Below, piece by piece: positions 31,038 through 36,115 of a DNA stretch of 36,936 bases. Made by a program: the position numbers and the translations under genes. The notes under the pieces are model-generated. The model saw only the letters and a list, made by a program, of their open reading frames with translations. It did no database searches and was not told the origin of the DNA. Source of the stretch: Candidatus Krumholzibacteriia bacterium. Its GTDB lineage: Bacteria; Krumholzibacteriota; Krumholzibacteriia; JAJRXK01. Position 1 is the stretch's first letter; each line of letters opens with the position of its first letter. The DNA is taken from positions 1-36,936 of the forward strand of contig DATFKK010000033.1 of assembly GCA_035268685.1 (NCBI GenBank), given 5' to 3'.

Positions 31038-32462
31038 TCAGGCCTGCGCGATCACCTTGAACTCGACGGCGATCGGCGTCGGCAGGCGCTCGACCTCGAC
31101 CGTGGTCCGCGTGGCCTCGACGTCGGCGAAGAACTCGGCGTACACCCGGTTGAAGGCCTCGAAGTCGCGTTCCATGTCGATCAGGAAGCACTGCACGTCG
31201 ATCACCCGGTCGAGCGAACTGCCGCTCGCCTCGAGGACGGTACGCACATTCTCGATCACCGCGCGGGTCTGGGCCTCGACGTCGTAGTCCTGCTTCTCGC
31301 CGCGTTCGTCCCACACCGCGCCCCCGGGCACGGCGTCGGTTCCGGGCGTGCGCGGCCCCATGCCGCTGACGAACAGCAGATCGCCGACCCGCCGGGCGTG
31401 CGGGAAGGCGCCCACCGGACGCGGGGCCTTCTCGGCGTGGACCACGCCCGCCGGGGCCGATCGCGGGGTGGGCGCTGCCGTCGTTTCGCTCGTCGTCGGA
31501 CCGGTCGCGCGCGGTTCGGCCGTGTCCGGCTCCGACGACGCCTGTCCGCTCAACACGTTGCGATCACCGATGAAGACCTCCACGTCCTCCTCGTCGAACT
31601 CGAGGTCGGCCGCGCTCTTCGGCGCCGGCGTCAGCCCGACCACGGCGGCACCGGTACCCACCAGTGGCTGGTAGTCGAACACGTGTCCCTCGTAGCGGTT
31701 GCTCTGTCCCATGAGCGCCGCCAGCCACCAGATCGCCTTCATCTTCTGGTCGGCGTGGGCCTGGGCGGTGAACTCACGGGCGTGCTGGCTCACGTCCTCG
31801 AGCCGGCCCTCGGCCAGGATCTCGACGATCTTGCGGTTCCACTCGTCGTCCTTGATCGCGCTCACCCGATCCTCCGACGGTTCGATCGACCGCGTGAACA
31901 TGCGATTGCTCAACGCCGTCACCGAGATCGCGATCGCCCGCTTGCCCTGTTCGCGCAGGGCGTCGCGGGCAGCCTTGCCGAGCACCAGGGTCTCGGCGCG
32001 GTCGGCGTACATGTTGCAGCTCACCACGCAGGCCGGCAGGCGGCTGTCGGGATTTAGCAGCTTCAGCGCGACCACGGTTCCGGTGTCGATCGGGAAGCCG
32101 TGGTAGGCCACCGTGCGCGCGTGCAGACCGCGACGCGTGGCGGTGCGCTGGTAGGCCGCGGCGTAGTCGGCGTCCATGCGGAAGGAGTAGGGCATGTCGC
32201 CGAGGTCGTGCCATTCCTGGTCGACCAGGGTCCATTCGGGATTCGGGTCGGCCTGGATCTGGTGGCCGATCACGCTGAGCCACTGCGTGGAGTAGAGCAG
32301 CAGCAGATCGGCCTCGGTGCGTTCGATCTCGCGGCGCACGGCTTCGAAGGCATCGCGCAGCTTCCGCCAGGGTTCGGCGCGTTCGGGACACAACAAGGGG
32401 TGGGGCTTGCCAGGAACGACGTAACCACGGGCGATCTGCGGGTCGACGAGGGGCTCGCTCAT
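31038..32462 (-). CDS. Fusion: AmnA-like dioxygenase alpha subunit + RidA-type 2-aminomuconate deaminase
   Basis: The 474-residue protein joins two enzymes that are normally separate. Residues 1-280 resemble the non-catalytic alpha subunit of 2-aminophenol 1,6-dioxygenase (AmnA), with LLLYSTQWLSV (54-64), HGFPIDTGTV and KDDEWNRKIVEIL. Compared with the catalytic partner, the iron ligands are lost (Gln60 for the second His, Asp238 for the Glu) and the catalytic His is Asn186. A Thr/Pro/Ser/Ala-rich linker (about 300-345) leads to a complete RidA/YjgF domain (346-474) starting APRPVGAFPHARRVGDLLFV, with the key Arg452 in TRTTVEV and Glu467 in AVEFKVIA. The domain resembles 2-aminomuconate deaminase (AmnD), which converts 2-aminomuconate to 4-oxalocrotonate and ammonia. 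The ATG overlaps the AmnB-like stop (ATGA). Confidence 0.88.
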   Translation of the reverse strand: MSEPLVDPQIARGYVVPGKPHPLLCPERAEPWRKLRDAFEAVRREIERTEADLLLLYSTQWLSVIGHQIQADPNPEWTLVDQEWHDLGDMPYSFRMDADYAAAYQRTATRRGLHARTVAYHGFPIDTGTVVALKLLNPDSRLPACVVSCNMYADRAETLVLGKAARDALREQGKRAIAISVTALSNRMFTRSIEPSEDRVSAIKDDEWNRKIVEILAEGRLEDVSQHAREFTAQAHADQKMKAIWWLAALMGQSNRYEGHVFDYQPLVGTGAAVVGLTPAPKSAADLEFDEEDVEVFIGDRNVLSGQASSEPDTAEPRATGPTTSETTAAPTPRSAPAGVVHAEKAPRPVGAFPHARRVGDLLFVSGMGPRTPGTDAVPGGAVWDERGEKQDYDVEAQTRAVIENVRTVLEASGSSLDRVIDVQCFLIDMERDFEAFNRVYAEFFADVEATRTTVEVERLPTPIAVEFKVIAQA

Positions 32463-33358
32463 CGCGTCACCTCCGCGCGCTCGAGGTTCCACTCGACCAC
32501 CGCGTTGCCGGTTCCGATCACCGTGCCGTAGGCGTGCACCTCGGCCGGCCCGGTGGGGAAGTCCATGGCGGCGAGCATCCAGCTCAACGAGCCCTCCTTG
32601 GTCTCGGCCGTGGCCTGCCGCGTGAAGTCGACCATCTCGTCGGCGATCTGGCGCGTGCGCCCGCGGCGCATGTGATCGAGCAGGCGCATGTCCCACAGGT
32701 ACTGGCCGTGGTGGTAGACGTGCTCCCGGCTCATGTCCTCGGGCGTCTCGCTCTCGTGCGTGAAGTGACGGTGGCTGAGCGAACAGCTCGAGAGCACCAC
32801 CGCGCGCCGGCCACTGCGTTCGATCGCGCGGCGGGTGGCGTGGCCGAGGGAGATCATCTCCTCGTGGCCCACGTCGTCGCCGAAGTCGTAGAACGCCGTG
32901 CTGCTGCTCAGACCGACGATCGGAACGTCCCACGCCGGATTCATCAGGTGGCAGCTCGCGATGGTTCCGTAGTCCACGCGGAAGTTCGGGTTGCGCATCA
33001 CCTTCGCGACCAGGCCGTCCTCTTCGATCGCATGGTGGATGGCCTCGGCGAGCTCGACGTCGACGTCGATCTCGTAGCGGTAGCGGAAGAGGTTCGGGAA
33101 GATCGGATCGACGCTCAGCCCGCTGAAGTGCGGCACACCGAGCACGTGCGTTCCCTGGGTGGTCTTCCAGTGCGGGGAGTGGACCACGAACACGTCGGGC
33201 TCGAGCGCGAGCACGCTCCTGCGGCAGCGCTCGTAGCCCCAGCGCAGCATCTCCCACCCGCACTCGGCGCGGGGTTCGTTCTGCGGGGGGTTCTCGGCGT
33301 AGACCAGGTGCGGCGGGTGCGGGGCGAGCACCCCGGCCACGATGCGTCCTCCACTCAT
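32459..33358 (-). CDS. 2-aminophenol 1,6-dioxygenase beta (catalytic) subunit-like, LigB family
   Basis: The 299-residue protein is a class III extradiol dioxygenase that cleaves the ring next to an amino-substituted carbon using Fe(II) and O2. It has the AmnB-type start LAPHPPHLVYAENPPQNEP, FVVHSPHWKTT, DPIFPNLFRY and the ending YGTVIGTGNAVVEWNL. His14, His63 and Glu252 fit the iron ligands and His196 (SLSHRHF) the catalytic base; each is one residue off the AmnB-type numbering I recall (13, 62, 251, 195). The expected product is 2-aminomuconic semialdehyde or a derivative. It overlaps both neighbours by 4 nt (ATGA), so it is co-translated with its presumed alpha subunit. A different aminophenol, such as a carboxylated or alkylated one, cannot be excluded. 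Confidence 0.9.
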   Translation of the reverse strand: MSGGRIVAGVLAPHPPHLVYAENPPQNEPRAECGWEMLRWGYERCRRSVLALEPDVFVVHSPHWKTTQGTHVLGVPHFSGLSVDPIFPNLFRYRYEIDVDVELAEAIHHAIEEDGLVAKVMRNPNFRVDYGTIASCHLMNPAWDVPIVGLSSSTAFYDFGDDVGHEEMISLGHATRRAIERSGRRAVVLSSCSLSHRHFTHESETPEDMSREHVYHHGQYLWDMRLLDHMRRGRTRQIADEMVDFTRQATAETKEGSLSWMLAAMDFPTGPAEVHAYGTVIGTGNAVVEWNLERAEVTR

Positions 33359-34821
33359 CGGCTCTCCGTTCGTTCGTTCAGGCGGATGCAGACGTTGCGG
33401 GCCTCGCTGAAGAACTCGAGCGACCAGCGACCGCCCTCGCGGCCCACACCGCTGTCCTTCACGCCGCCGAAGGGCACGCGCAGATCGCGCAGCAACCACG
33501 TGTTCACCCAGACCATGCCGCACTCCAGCCGCGCGCTCACCCGGTGCGCGCGGTCGAGGTCGCGCGTCCACACGCTGGCGCTCAGGCCGTAGCGCACGCC
33601 GTTGGCCAGCGCGAGGGCTTCGTCCTCGGTGTCGAAGGGATGCACGGTCACGACGGGACCGAAGATCTCCTCGGTGGCCGTGCGGCAGGAAGGCTCGAGT
33701 CCGGTGATCACGGCGGGCTCGAGGAAGAATCCGCCGGAGAGTTCCCCGTCGAGCCGGGGTCGTTCGCCCCCGCAGAGGATGGTCCCGCCCTCGTCGCGGG
33801 CGAGCTGCAGGTACGACTCGACCTTCTCGCGGTGCGTCGCACTGATCAGCGCACCGACCTGGGTCTTCGCGTGGTCGGGATCGCCGAGCCGCAGGGCGCG
33901 CACGCGGTCGACGAAGCGCTCGACGAAGGCGTCGTGGATGGAGCGCTCCACCAGCACGCGCGATCCGCACAGGCAGATCTCGCCCTGGTTCGCGAAGCCG
34001 GCCTTCACGGTGCCGGCCACGGCGCGCTCGAGGTCGCTGTCGGCGAACACCAGCGTGGGGTTCTTCCCACCGAGCTCCAGGCTCAGCTTCTTGAAGTCCT
34101 CGGCCGCGGTGCGGGCAACGGTGCGGCCGGTGGCCGTACCGCCGGTGAACGAGATCGCGCCGACGCCGTCGGCGGCGCACAGGGCCTGGCCGACCTCGGC
34201 ACCGACGCCGTGGACCACGTTGAAGACGCCCGGCGGCAGTCCCACGTCGTCGACGATCTCGGCCAGGGCGTTCGCGGTGAGGGGCGTGAGTTCGCTCGGC
34301 TTGGCGATCACCCGGTTGCCCATGGCCAGCGCGGGGGCCGTCTTCCAGCTCAGCAGGTAGAGCGGGAGGTTCCACGGTGTGATCAACGCGACGTTTCCCA
34401 CGGGCTGGCGCAGCGTGTAGTTGATCGCGCCGGGCATGGTCTGGAATCCGTCCTCGTGGTGCCGCACGGCGCCGGCGAAGAAGCGGAAGTTCGCCACCGC
34501 GCGCGGGATGTCCACACTGCGCGCGAGCGACCGCGGCTTTCCGGTGTCGAAGGATTCGAGCGAGGACAGCTCGTCGAGCCGCTCCTCGATCCGGTCGGCG
34601 ATGGCGTCGAGGAGATCGGCGCGCTCGGCCACCGTGGTGTGGGCCCACGGTCCCCGGCCGGCCTCGGTGGCGGCGGTGACCGCCGCGGCCACGTCGTCCG
34701 GGCCGCTGCGCGGGATCGTGGCGACCACGGCGCCGGTGGCCGGAGCGACGTCGTCGATCCGGTCGCCGCCGGACGCGGGCACGAAGGCACCGCCGAGGTA
34801 GTTCTCGACCCGCCGGCTCAC
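33355..34821 (-). CDS. 2-aminomuconic/2-hydroxymuconic semialdehyde dehydrogenase (ALDH family)
   Basis: The 488-residue NAD-dependent aldehyde dehydrogenase has catalytic Cys283 in FANQGEICLCGSR, general base Glu249 in LSLELGGKNP and Asn151 in TPWNLPLY. The NQGEICLC segment and the closing VNTWLLRDLRVPFGGVKDSG match the ALDH8A1/AMSDH/HMSDH branch. Arg101 and Arg445 fall where the two substrate-carboxylate arginines of bacterial AMSDH (R120 and R464 from memory) would lie, with the same offset as Cys and Glu. It would oxidise the ring-cleavage product to 2-aminomuconate. GTG at 34821 has GGGGAGG 7 nt upstream. Its stop overlaps the AmnB-like start by 4 nt; a 115-bp gap with a tiny open frame precedes it. 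Confidence 0.92.
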   Translation of the reverse strand: MSRRVENYLGGAFVPASGGDRIDDVAPATGAVVATIPRSGPDDVAAAVTAATEAGRGPWAHTTVAERADLLDAIADRIEERLDELSSLESFDTGKPRSLARSVDIPRAVANFRFFAGAVRHHEDGFQTMPGAINYTLRQPVGNVALITPWNLPLYLLSWKTAPALAMGNRVIAKPSELTPLTANALAEIVDDVGLPPGVFNVVHGVGAEVGQALCAADGVGAISFTGGTATGRTVARTAAEDFKKLSLELGGKNPTLVFADSDLERAVAGTVKAGFANQGEICLCGSRVLVERSIHDAFVERFVDRVRALRLGDPDHAKTQVGALISATHREKVESYLQLARDEGGTILCGGERPRLDGELSGGFFLEPAVITGLEPSCRTATEEIFGPVVTVHPFDTEDEALALANGVRYGLSASVWTRDLDRAHRVSARLECGMVWVNTWLLRDLRVPFGGVKDSGVGREGGRWSLEFFSEARNVCIRLNERTESR

Positions 34822-34936: not shown

Positions 34937-36115
34937 TCAGGCCGGGTCCTCGGAGATCGGGCCGTCGGTCGCGTACCGACTCCACTCGTACGACCAGTGG
35001 TCGCGGTCGGGATCCCAGTCGTCCCACGTGGGGATCGCCTCCAGGGCCTCGAGCCGGTCGGGCGGCACGACGCCCGGCACGAGGAACGCCTTCTGCTTGT
35101 ACAGCTTGTAGGGGTTGCGCAGTTCGAACCCGAGCGTGCCCAGGATACCCCGGGCGATGTACCAGGTGGCCCGCGGATTCCATCCGTGCGCGATCTTCAC
35201 CACCACGCCGAGACCCTGCGGATGGTCGGGATGGTCGATCGCCATGCCGAGCAATCCGTCGGCGCCCTCCTTGGCGATCACCTTGCCGTCGCAGGCTTTG
35301 AGGATGGTGGAGTCGAGGCGGTTGAAGCCGCCCACGAGGTCGGGATGGCGCACCATGGCCTCGAAGATCCAGTCCTCGTCGCGCCGCAGGGCGAGACCGG
35401 CGTAGATCTTGGCCAGTTCGCCGACCGTCATCGCGATGGTCGGGAAGCCGTCGCCGTCGCGGGCCATGCGCCGGGGCTGCCACTGTGCCCCGAGGTCACG
35501 GCGGATCAACTCGAGGTACTCGGCGAACCACTCGTGGTGCGGAAGCGTGTACCCCGCGCGGTTGAAGCCCCGCAGACGGCAGCCCTTCAGGATCGCCGCG
35601 TGCTGTCCGCTCGAGTTGTTGTACCAGCGGCGCGGGCGCCGGACCTGCCGACCGAACTGCACGAGCGGGACGTCGAGGGGTGTCTGCATCAGGCCCCACT
35701 CCGGCTCCGGCAGCAGCGACTGCGCGGCGCGCACGTGCTCGGCGCTACCGTTGTGGCTGGCCACGGCGATGGCCTTCTGTTCCCACGTGGTCTCGGGCTC
35801 GAGGATCTCGGCGAAGACCTTCAGCATGACGGGCTTCATCATGCTGCGCCCGTAGCACAACACGTTGCCGCCGAAGGAGTGGAAGATCTCCTCGTCGCTG
35901 GCCCAGGCGACCGCCCCGTGGATCGTCGTCTCGCTCACGCCATGGCGCCGGTAGTCGATCAGCGGTTCCCACTCGACGTCGCGGCCGGTGGCGATGCCCT
36001 CTTCCCGTTCGCCCAGCGGACTGCGGGGATAGAAGTGACTGCCGTCGCGCCGTTCGGGCGTCTCGTGCGGCCACGGTCGGTGCAGGAGCTCGTCGACCTT
36101 TTCGTCTCCGCTCAT
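34937..36115 (-). CDS. Asparaginase_II-family hydrolase with altered metal/thiol site
   Basis: The 392-residue protein matches the Rhizobium-type L-asparaginase II fold across its length: SMMK (Ser91-xx-Lys94), ASHNGSAEHV (Ser120), YNNSSGQHAAIL, DGDGFPTIAMTVGELAKIYAGLA, and KEGADGLLGMAI followed by GLGVVVKIAHGWNPRA. The two serine/lysine nucleophile positions are kept. Where R. etli ReAV has Cys135, Lys138 and Cys189 (metal and substrate site, numbering from memory) this protein has Ser168, Gln171 and Asp222. That suggests an amide-type hydrolase for a different substrate rather than a housekeeping asparaginase. An N-terminal extension of about 45 residues (HRPWPHETPERRDG) precedes the domain. 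ATG at 36115 overlaps the upstream monooxygenase stop (ATGA). Confidence 0.8.
   Translation of the reverse strand: MSGDEKVDELLHRPWPHETPERRDGSHFYPRSPLGEREEGIATGRDVEWEPLIDYRRHGVSETTIHGAVAWASDEEIFHSFGGNVLCYGRSMMKPVMLKVFAEILEPETTWEQKAIAVASHNGSAEHVRAAQSLLPEPEWGLMQTPLDVPLVQFGRQVRRPRRWYNNSSGQHAAILKGCRLRGFNRAGYTLPHHEWFAEYLELIRRDLGAQWQPRRMARDGDGFPTIAMTVGELAKIYAGLALRRDEDWIFEAMVRHPDLVGGFNRLDSTILKACDGKVIAKEGADGLLGMAIDHPDHPQGLGVVVKIAHGWNPRATWYIARGILGTLGFELRNPYKLYKQKAFLVPGVVPPDRLEALEAIPTWDDWDPDRDHWSYEWSRYATDGPISEDPA

Follow-up and report, generated by a model that had tools for sequence, protein, structure and literature searches.

The window, by which we mean the whole stretch of 36,936 nucleotides analysed, ends in a group of reverse-strand genes (Table 1) that encode a luciferase-like monooxygenase (LLM), an Asparaginase_II homologue (AsnII), an aldehyde dehydrogenase (ALDH) and two LigB-family subunits (LigB1 and LigB2), the second of them joined to a RidA (Ribonuc_L-PSP) domain. 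The stop codon of LLM and the start codon of AsnII overlap by 4 bp on the same strand. LigB2 and RidA form one frame (31038-32462); the archaea and most Bdellovibrionota loci encode the two separately, and RidA is a gene of its own in many other loci. Because the ring-cleavage genes are nearest to 2-aminophenol enzymes, the aromatic operon is assigned to the 2-aminophenol pathway, and the catabolic set for that compound—1,6-dioxygenase, aminomuconate-semialdehyde dehydrogenase (AMSDH) and RidA deaminase, the last assigned its role by family only—is complete in the window. The placement of AsnII in an aromatic-ring catabolic operon, made in an earlier sequence-only reading of this DNA, is thus borne out, with 2-aminophenol-type enzymes as its neighbours.

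Table 1. Coordinates of the genes and domains in the window, and of genes discussed from other contigs and loci
Feature	Position	Strand	Remarks
LLM, C-terminal 274 aa	36112..36936	(-)	Cut by contig end; proposed type II Baeyer-Villiger monooxygenase of kynurenine
AsnII	34937..36115	(-)	392 aa from ATG; proposed hydrolase of aspartate beta-(2-aminophenyl) ester/anilide
ALDH	33355..34821	(-)	Nearest solved proteins are 2-aminomuconate 6-semialdehyde dehydrogenases, 6e-147
LigB1 (subunit 1)	32459..33358	(-)	Nearest solved protein is 2-aminophenol / 2-amino-5-chlorophenol 1,6-dioxygenase beta, 3e-110
LigB2 (subunit 2, alpha-type)	31434..32462	(-)	N-terminal part of the fusion with RidA; 2-amino-5-chlorophenol 1,6-dioxygenase alpha, 6e-57
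RidA domain	31038..31433	(-)	Fused to LigB2; proposed 2-aminomuconate deaminase, by family
SDR, window genome	L036:10051-10830		Contig C125
SDR, nine-gene locus	L013:5653-6438		
Kynureninase-like gene, window genome	L037:2842-3924		Contig C37; 289 bits, KYNU_C
Formyl_trans_N-like protein, archaea	L009:8786-9523		After RidA
Formyl_trans_N-like protein, archaea	L010:10205-10906		After RidA
LLM homologue, Streptomyces clavuligerus	L085:14001-15245		pCLA1; 54.5% identity; cultured organism, convenient test enzyme

Since the contig ends where the window ends, the upstream genes were sought on other contigs of the genome. The end of contig C125 carries tryptophan 2,3-dioxygenase (TDO), an SDR and the first 235 aa of LLM (its N-terminal part). 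The last 298 bp of this contig match the end of the window in an end-to-end overlap of 92.3% identity, a level that strain variation at an assembly break would be expected to give. With this putative join, the operon most likely reads TDO-SDR-LLM-AsnII-ALDH-LigB1-LigB2::RidA. An arylformamidase is encoded on contig C50 (233.5 bits; cut-off 223). The genome also contains a kynureninase-like gene, unlinked to TDO or to the operon genes; as 12 other genomes of the window phylum have kynureninase without TDO, this gene may serve something else.

AsnII matches the PF06089 Asparaginase_II profile at 142.9 bits (E 1.5e-41; curated cut-off 25 bits). Its top phmmer match is ReAIV/ReAV of Rhizobium etli (8.1e-16), and ReAV/ReAIV is also the best Foldseek match (8.0e-17) of its AlphaFold model (pLDDT 76). 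Residues were mapped by an explicit alignment that included the R. etli CFN 42 asparaginase gene on p42e. In this alignment R90, S91, K94, S120 and K282 of AsnII correspond to R47, S48, K51, S80 and K263 of ReAV, so that both Ser-Lys tandems and Arg47 are retained; Ser91, Lys94 and Ser120 had been recognised as kept in the sequence-only reading, and the equivalents of Lys263 and Arg47 are to be added to them. D220, Y189 and H172 correspond to ReAV D187, Y156 and H139. The ReAV zinc ligands C135, K138 and C189 are replaced by S168, Q171 and D222, numbered just as had been proposed, and no cysteine at a shifted position substitutes for them, so that the alignment leaves AsnII without the class 3 zinc site. 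It likewise places D268 at ReAV Cys249, a conserved 'pattern I' residue (PMC12292245), and AsnII thus departs from class 3 at this position too. The equivalents of ReAV R47, S48, K51, S80, K263 and D187 are invariant across the LLM-linked orthologues, and Asp268 was seen in all of those examined. Together with Glu283, His310 and Trp249, it sets the LLM-linked proteins apart, in the alignment, from seven plasmid-borne asparaginases, which have Cys or Val at the Asp268 position; three of the four annotated plasmid asparaginases adjoin aspartate ammonia-lyase, not LLM. A lactamase identity, also raised earlier, was discarded, the likeness being one of remote fold similarity (Foldseek, class A beta-lactamase, 1.5e-3) with no genomic context to match.

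A scan of bacterial and archaeal genomes gave 27 AsnII relatives with 66-80% identity, drawn from Krumholzibacteriota, Planctomycetota, Latescibacterota, Bdellovibrionota, Acidobacteriota, Myxococcota, Thermoplasmatota/Poseidoniia and others. Their loci span about ten phyla, Poseidoniia archaea among them, and the carriers found by name are all metagenome-assembled. Most of the 27 loci hold the set LLM, AsnII, ALDH, LigB1, LigB2 and RidA, in two main gene orders; some hold a partial set or are truncated at a contig end. An SDR regularly lies upstream, joined in many loci by TDO, and an arylformamidase-like cyclase often lies downstream; one locus (L013) has nine genes in a row, TDO-SDR-LLM-AsnII-ALDH-LigB1-LigB2-RidA-formamidase. 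In the marine archaeal loci L009 and L010 RidA is followed by a Formyl_trans_N-like protein of 233-245 aa, which could be an alternative deformylase for N-formylkynurenine or an enzyme of formyl transfer.

Two further loci hold LLM and AsnII in reduced company. L080 (genome G204) is a four-gene operon, LLM-AsnII-formamidase-TDO, with genes overlapping or adjacent and an AsnII of 35% identity; ring-cleavage genes are absent within 11.5 kb. In L081 (genome G213) LLM and AsnII (38% identity) stand as a lone pair. Given the L080 operon with no ring-cleavage genes, the LLM-AsnII pair most likely acts on the product of TDO and formamidase, L-kynurenine, and does so independently of ring cleavage.

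The positions of the ReAV zinc ligands vary among the orthologues. The triad is S-Q-D or S-H-D in 14 of the first 27, from several phyla, and C-E-C in 13 of them and in L073 and L074; the full C-K-C triad is present in L075-L079, C-Q-C in L080 and S-H-D in L081. In a tree of the first 27, whose input alignment retained the triad columns, all three positions switch in concert across a supported split. As the S-Q/H-D form is common to 14 of the 27 and lies on one side of this split, the substitution in AsnII is not due to chance. The sequence-only reading had taken the lost Cys/Lys/Cys site as the mark of a new function; this was rejected, since orthologues in the same operon type and with the same LLM keep C-K-C, C-E-C or C-Q-C. 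Its broader suggestion, a neofunctionalised hydrolase with a larger substrate, survives without that signal: the acylation machinery has been preserved, and the enzyme is best read as acting on something larger than asparagine. The functional change is marked instead by context and by the fixed residues Asp268, Glu283, His310 and Trp249. For the S-Q/H-D forms we infer that anchoring falls to Asp222 and the residues around it. L075-L079 constitute a Bdellovibrionota sub-clade with full C-K-C, the same operon and about 58-60% identity, and offer a natural comparison pair for metal-bearing and possibly metal-free forms.

The LLM orthologue of L013 matches PF00296 (1.5e-11), which places it among the luciferase-fold flavin monooxygenases, and a model of the L003 orthologue (pLDDT 87) matches the luciferase family in Foldseek, including 3,6-diketocamphane monooxygenase (6.9e-12). 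Type II Baeyer-Villiger monooxygenases are found among the luciferase-fold flavin enzymes (PMC4631483). The sequence similarity of LLM to any solved protein is weak, so Baeyer-Villiger activity is proposed from the family of the fold and the logic of the pathway. None of the genes was recognised as encoding a flavin reductase. The SDR encoded just before LLM has S-N-x-x-R in place of the Y-x-x-x-K of classical SDRs in all 19 aligned sequences (18 loci and C125); to judge from this motif it may not be an ordinary dehydrogenase, and a flavin-reductase partner of LLM is one guess. In a plasmid search for cultured carriers, LLM matches came from Streptomyces clavuligerus alone, with partner genes absent within 14 kb.

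The window genome and the 27 relatives make up 28 carrier genomes. All have TDO, which is found in 2 of 14 controls, and all have LLM, of one distinct type. An arylformamidase-like gene is present in 24, several of them with the gene in the same operon as AsnII; the cyclase-type formamidase is absent from the three Poseidoniia-type archaeal genomes. Kynureninase scores over the cut-off in a single carrier, the window genome itself, and 3-HAO in none of the 28. Within the window phylum (80 genomes) the orthologue occurs in five genomes, all with TDO, and TDO in nine (Fisher P 5e-6, ignoring shared ancestry); for the four TDO genomes with no AsnII, cluster genes are not near TDO in three loci and a short fourth. 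A sample of 291 Bdellovibrionota genomes (orthologue threshold E <= 1e-175) contains 28 with the orthologue, again all with TDO, which occurs in 204 (Fisher P 4e-5, ignoring shared ancestry). Kynureninase is found in 55 of the 291, 54 of these with TDO, and in none of the 28 carriers (P 9e-5 among TDO genomes, ignoring shared ancestry). Of the Bdellovibrionota genomes sampled, a further 122 encode TDO and lack both kynureninase and the LLM-AsnII system, so kynurenine has other fates as well.

We propose, with a probability of roughly two in three, that AsnII carries out the hydrolytic half of a tryptophan degradation that is independent of kynureninase, and takes the Baeyer-Villiger product of LLM as its substrate. 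The proposal builds on the families to which the proteins belong, the conservation of the operon, the presence of TDO and LLM alongside AsnII, the almost complete lack of kynureninase and 3-HAO, and the retention of the catalytic residues. TDO and formamidase would convert tryptophan to L-kynurenine, an aryl ketone whose side chain resembles aspartate. LLM would insert oxygen between the aryl ring and the ketone carbonyl (aryl migration), yielding L-aspartate beta-(2-aminophenyl) ester, and this may undergo an O-to-N acyl shift to the anilide N4-(2-hydroxyphenyl)-L-asparagine; either would resemble asparagine and carry a bulky leaving group. If the residue roles of ReAV carry over, Ser91, with Lys94 as base, would attack the beta-carbonyl, Ser120 and Lys282 would act as a relay, and Arg90 would hold the alpha-carboxylate of the substrate. 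The predicted products are L-aspartate and 2-aminophenol, the latter being the very compound that the neighbouring dioxygenase takes as substrate; LigB1/LigB2 would open its ring, ALDH would oxidise the product and RidA would deaminate it. On balance it is probable that these steps amount to a complete kynureninase-free pathway in about ten bacterial and archaeal phyla, in which the metal anchor can be swapped (C-K-C, C-E-C, C-Q-C, S-Q-D, S-H-D) and the pathway stays unchanged.

Other roles for AsnII can be drawn from the same observations. Sharing an operon with 2-aminophenol 1,6-dioxygenase, AMSDH and RidA would also suit a hydrolase for an amide or lactam that arises once the ring is open, such as one derived from aminomuconate, with 2-aminophenol coming from elsewhere. 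The known 2-aminophenol route, to our knowledge, requires no amidase; moreover, L080 pairs LLM and AsnII with formamidase and TDO only, and L081 has the two alone, which makes this role unlikely. Alternatively, AsnII might be a serine hydrolase that itself cleaves the C-C bond of kynurenine or 3-hydroxykynurenine, LLM being a prior hydroxylase or a later anthranilate oxidative decarboxylase. This would agree with the inseparability of LLM and AsnII and with kynureninase being below cut-off or absent in 27 of the 28 genomes and in all 28 Bdellovibrionota carriers. However, we know of no precedent in the asparaginase fold for cleavage of a plain aryl-alkyl ketone without PLP, Ser-Lys acyl transfer suits ester and amide chemistry, and the lack of any 3-HAO over cut-off in the 28 genomes also speaks against it; we regard it as improbable.

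It is very unlikely that AsnII is still an L-asparaginase placed by chance in a catabolic operon. Family, fold, both Ser-Lys tandems and the C-K-C triad of some orthologues would be accounted for, but asparaginase activity is abolished in the ReAV mutants C135A and C189A (PMC11024299) and the S-Q/H-D orthologues lack both cysteines; the four fixed residues and the aspartate ammonia-lyase neighbourhood of the annotated plasmid asparaginases separate the two groups further. Kynurenine formamidase activity on N-formylkynurenine is the least probable role, although TDO is present in every carrier and three archaeal genomes lack the cyclase-type enzyme: an arylformamidase-like gene is already present in most carriers, L009 and L010 of the archaea encode the Formyl_trans_N-like protein, and the source of 2-aminophenol would be left unexplained.

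Tryptophan breakdown via kynurenine is usually assumed to require kynureninase, and TDO genomes that lack it are consequently read as incomplete. If AsnII hydrolyses the LLM product as proposed, the operon closes this gap in many uncultured lineages, and the annotations 'asparaginase' and 'LLM-class flavin oxidoreductase' gain a testable function. It would also provide an asparaginase active site with a zinc anchor that can be exchanged from one orthologue to the next, of use in research on class 3 asparaginases, a group explored as anti-leukaemia enzymes. No description of a route combining Baeyer-Villiger oxidation of kynurenine with an asparaginase-fold hydrolase was found in the literature searched; bioRxiv preprints and the majority of subscription journals lay outside its scope, which makes this negative result weak evidence. 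The individual folds are known ones; the pathway and the role of AsnII appear to be new.

The class 3 L-asparaginases ReAV and ReAIV have in common with AsnII the fold, both Ser-Lys tandems, Arg47, Asp187, Tyr156 and His139 and, presumably, acyl-enzyme chemistry on an aspartyl beta-carbonyl. The AsnII group differs in its variable metal triad (S-Q-D in the window), in Asp for Cys249 and in the fixed Glu283, His310 and Trp249, and whereas the ReAV and ReAIV genes adjoin an amino acid permease and aspartate ammonia-lyase, AsnII sits in a TDO/LLM/aminophenol operon. The type II Baeyer-Villiger enzyme 3,6-diketocamphane monooxygenase (PMC4631483) shares the luciferase fold of the LLM model, but LLM is distant from it, other members of the luciferase family match equally well or more closely, and the substrate is unrelated. 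The 2-aminophenol 1,6-dioxygenase (amn/cnb) pathway shares the dioxygenase subunits, AMSDH and a RidA-type gene; window-type loci add LLM, AsnII, TDO and formamidase upstream, and the window has RidA fused to LigB2. The kynureninase-dependent routes, through anthranilate or 3-hydroxyanthranilate, likewise begin with TDO and formamidase, and the 3-hydroxyanthranilate branch likewise ends through aminomuconate; the carriers, in contrast, have no kynureninase over the cut-off in 27 of 28 genomes and no 3-HAO over the cut-off in any of the 28, and the ring is opened as 2-aminophenol. Similar in logic to the proposed LLM-AsnII pair is 4-hydroxyacetophenone monooxygenase with its esterase, which convert an aryl ketone to an aryl ester and then to a phenol and an acid. 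That pair consists of a type I FAD Baeyer-Villiger monooxygenase and an unrelated esterase, whereas LLM-AsnII would combine a luciferase fold with an asparaginase fold and act on an amino-acid ketone.
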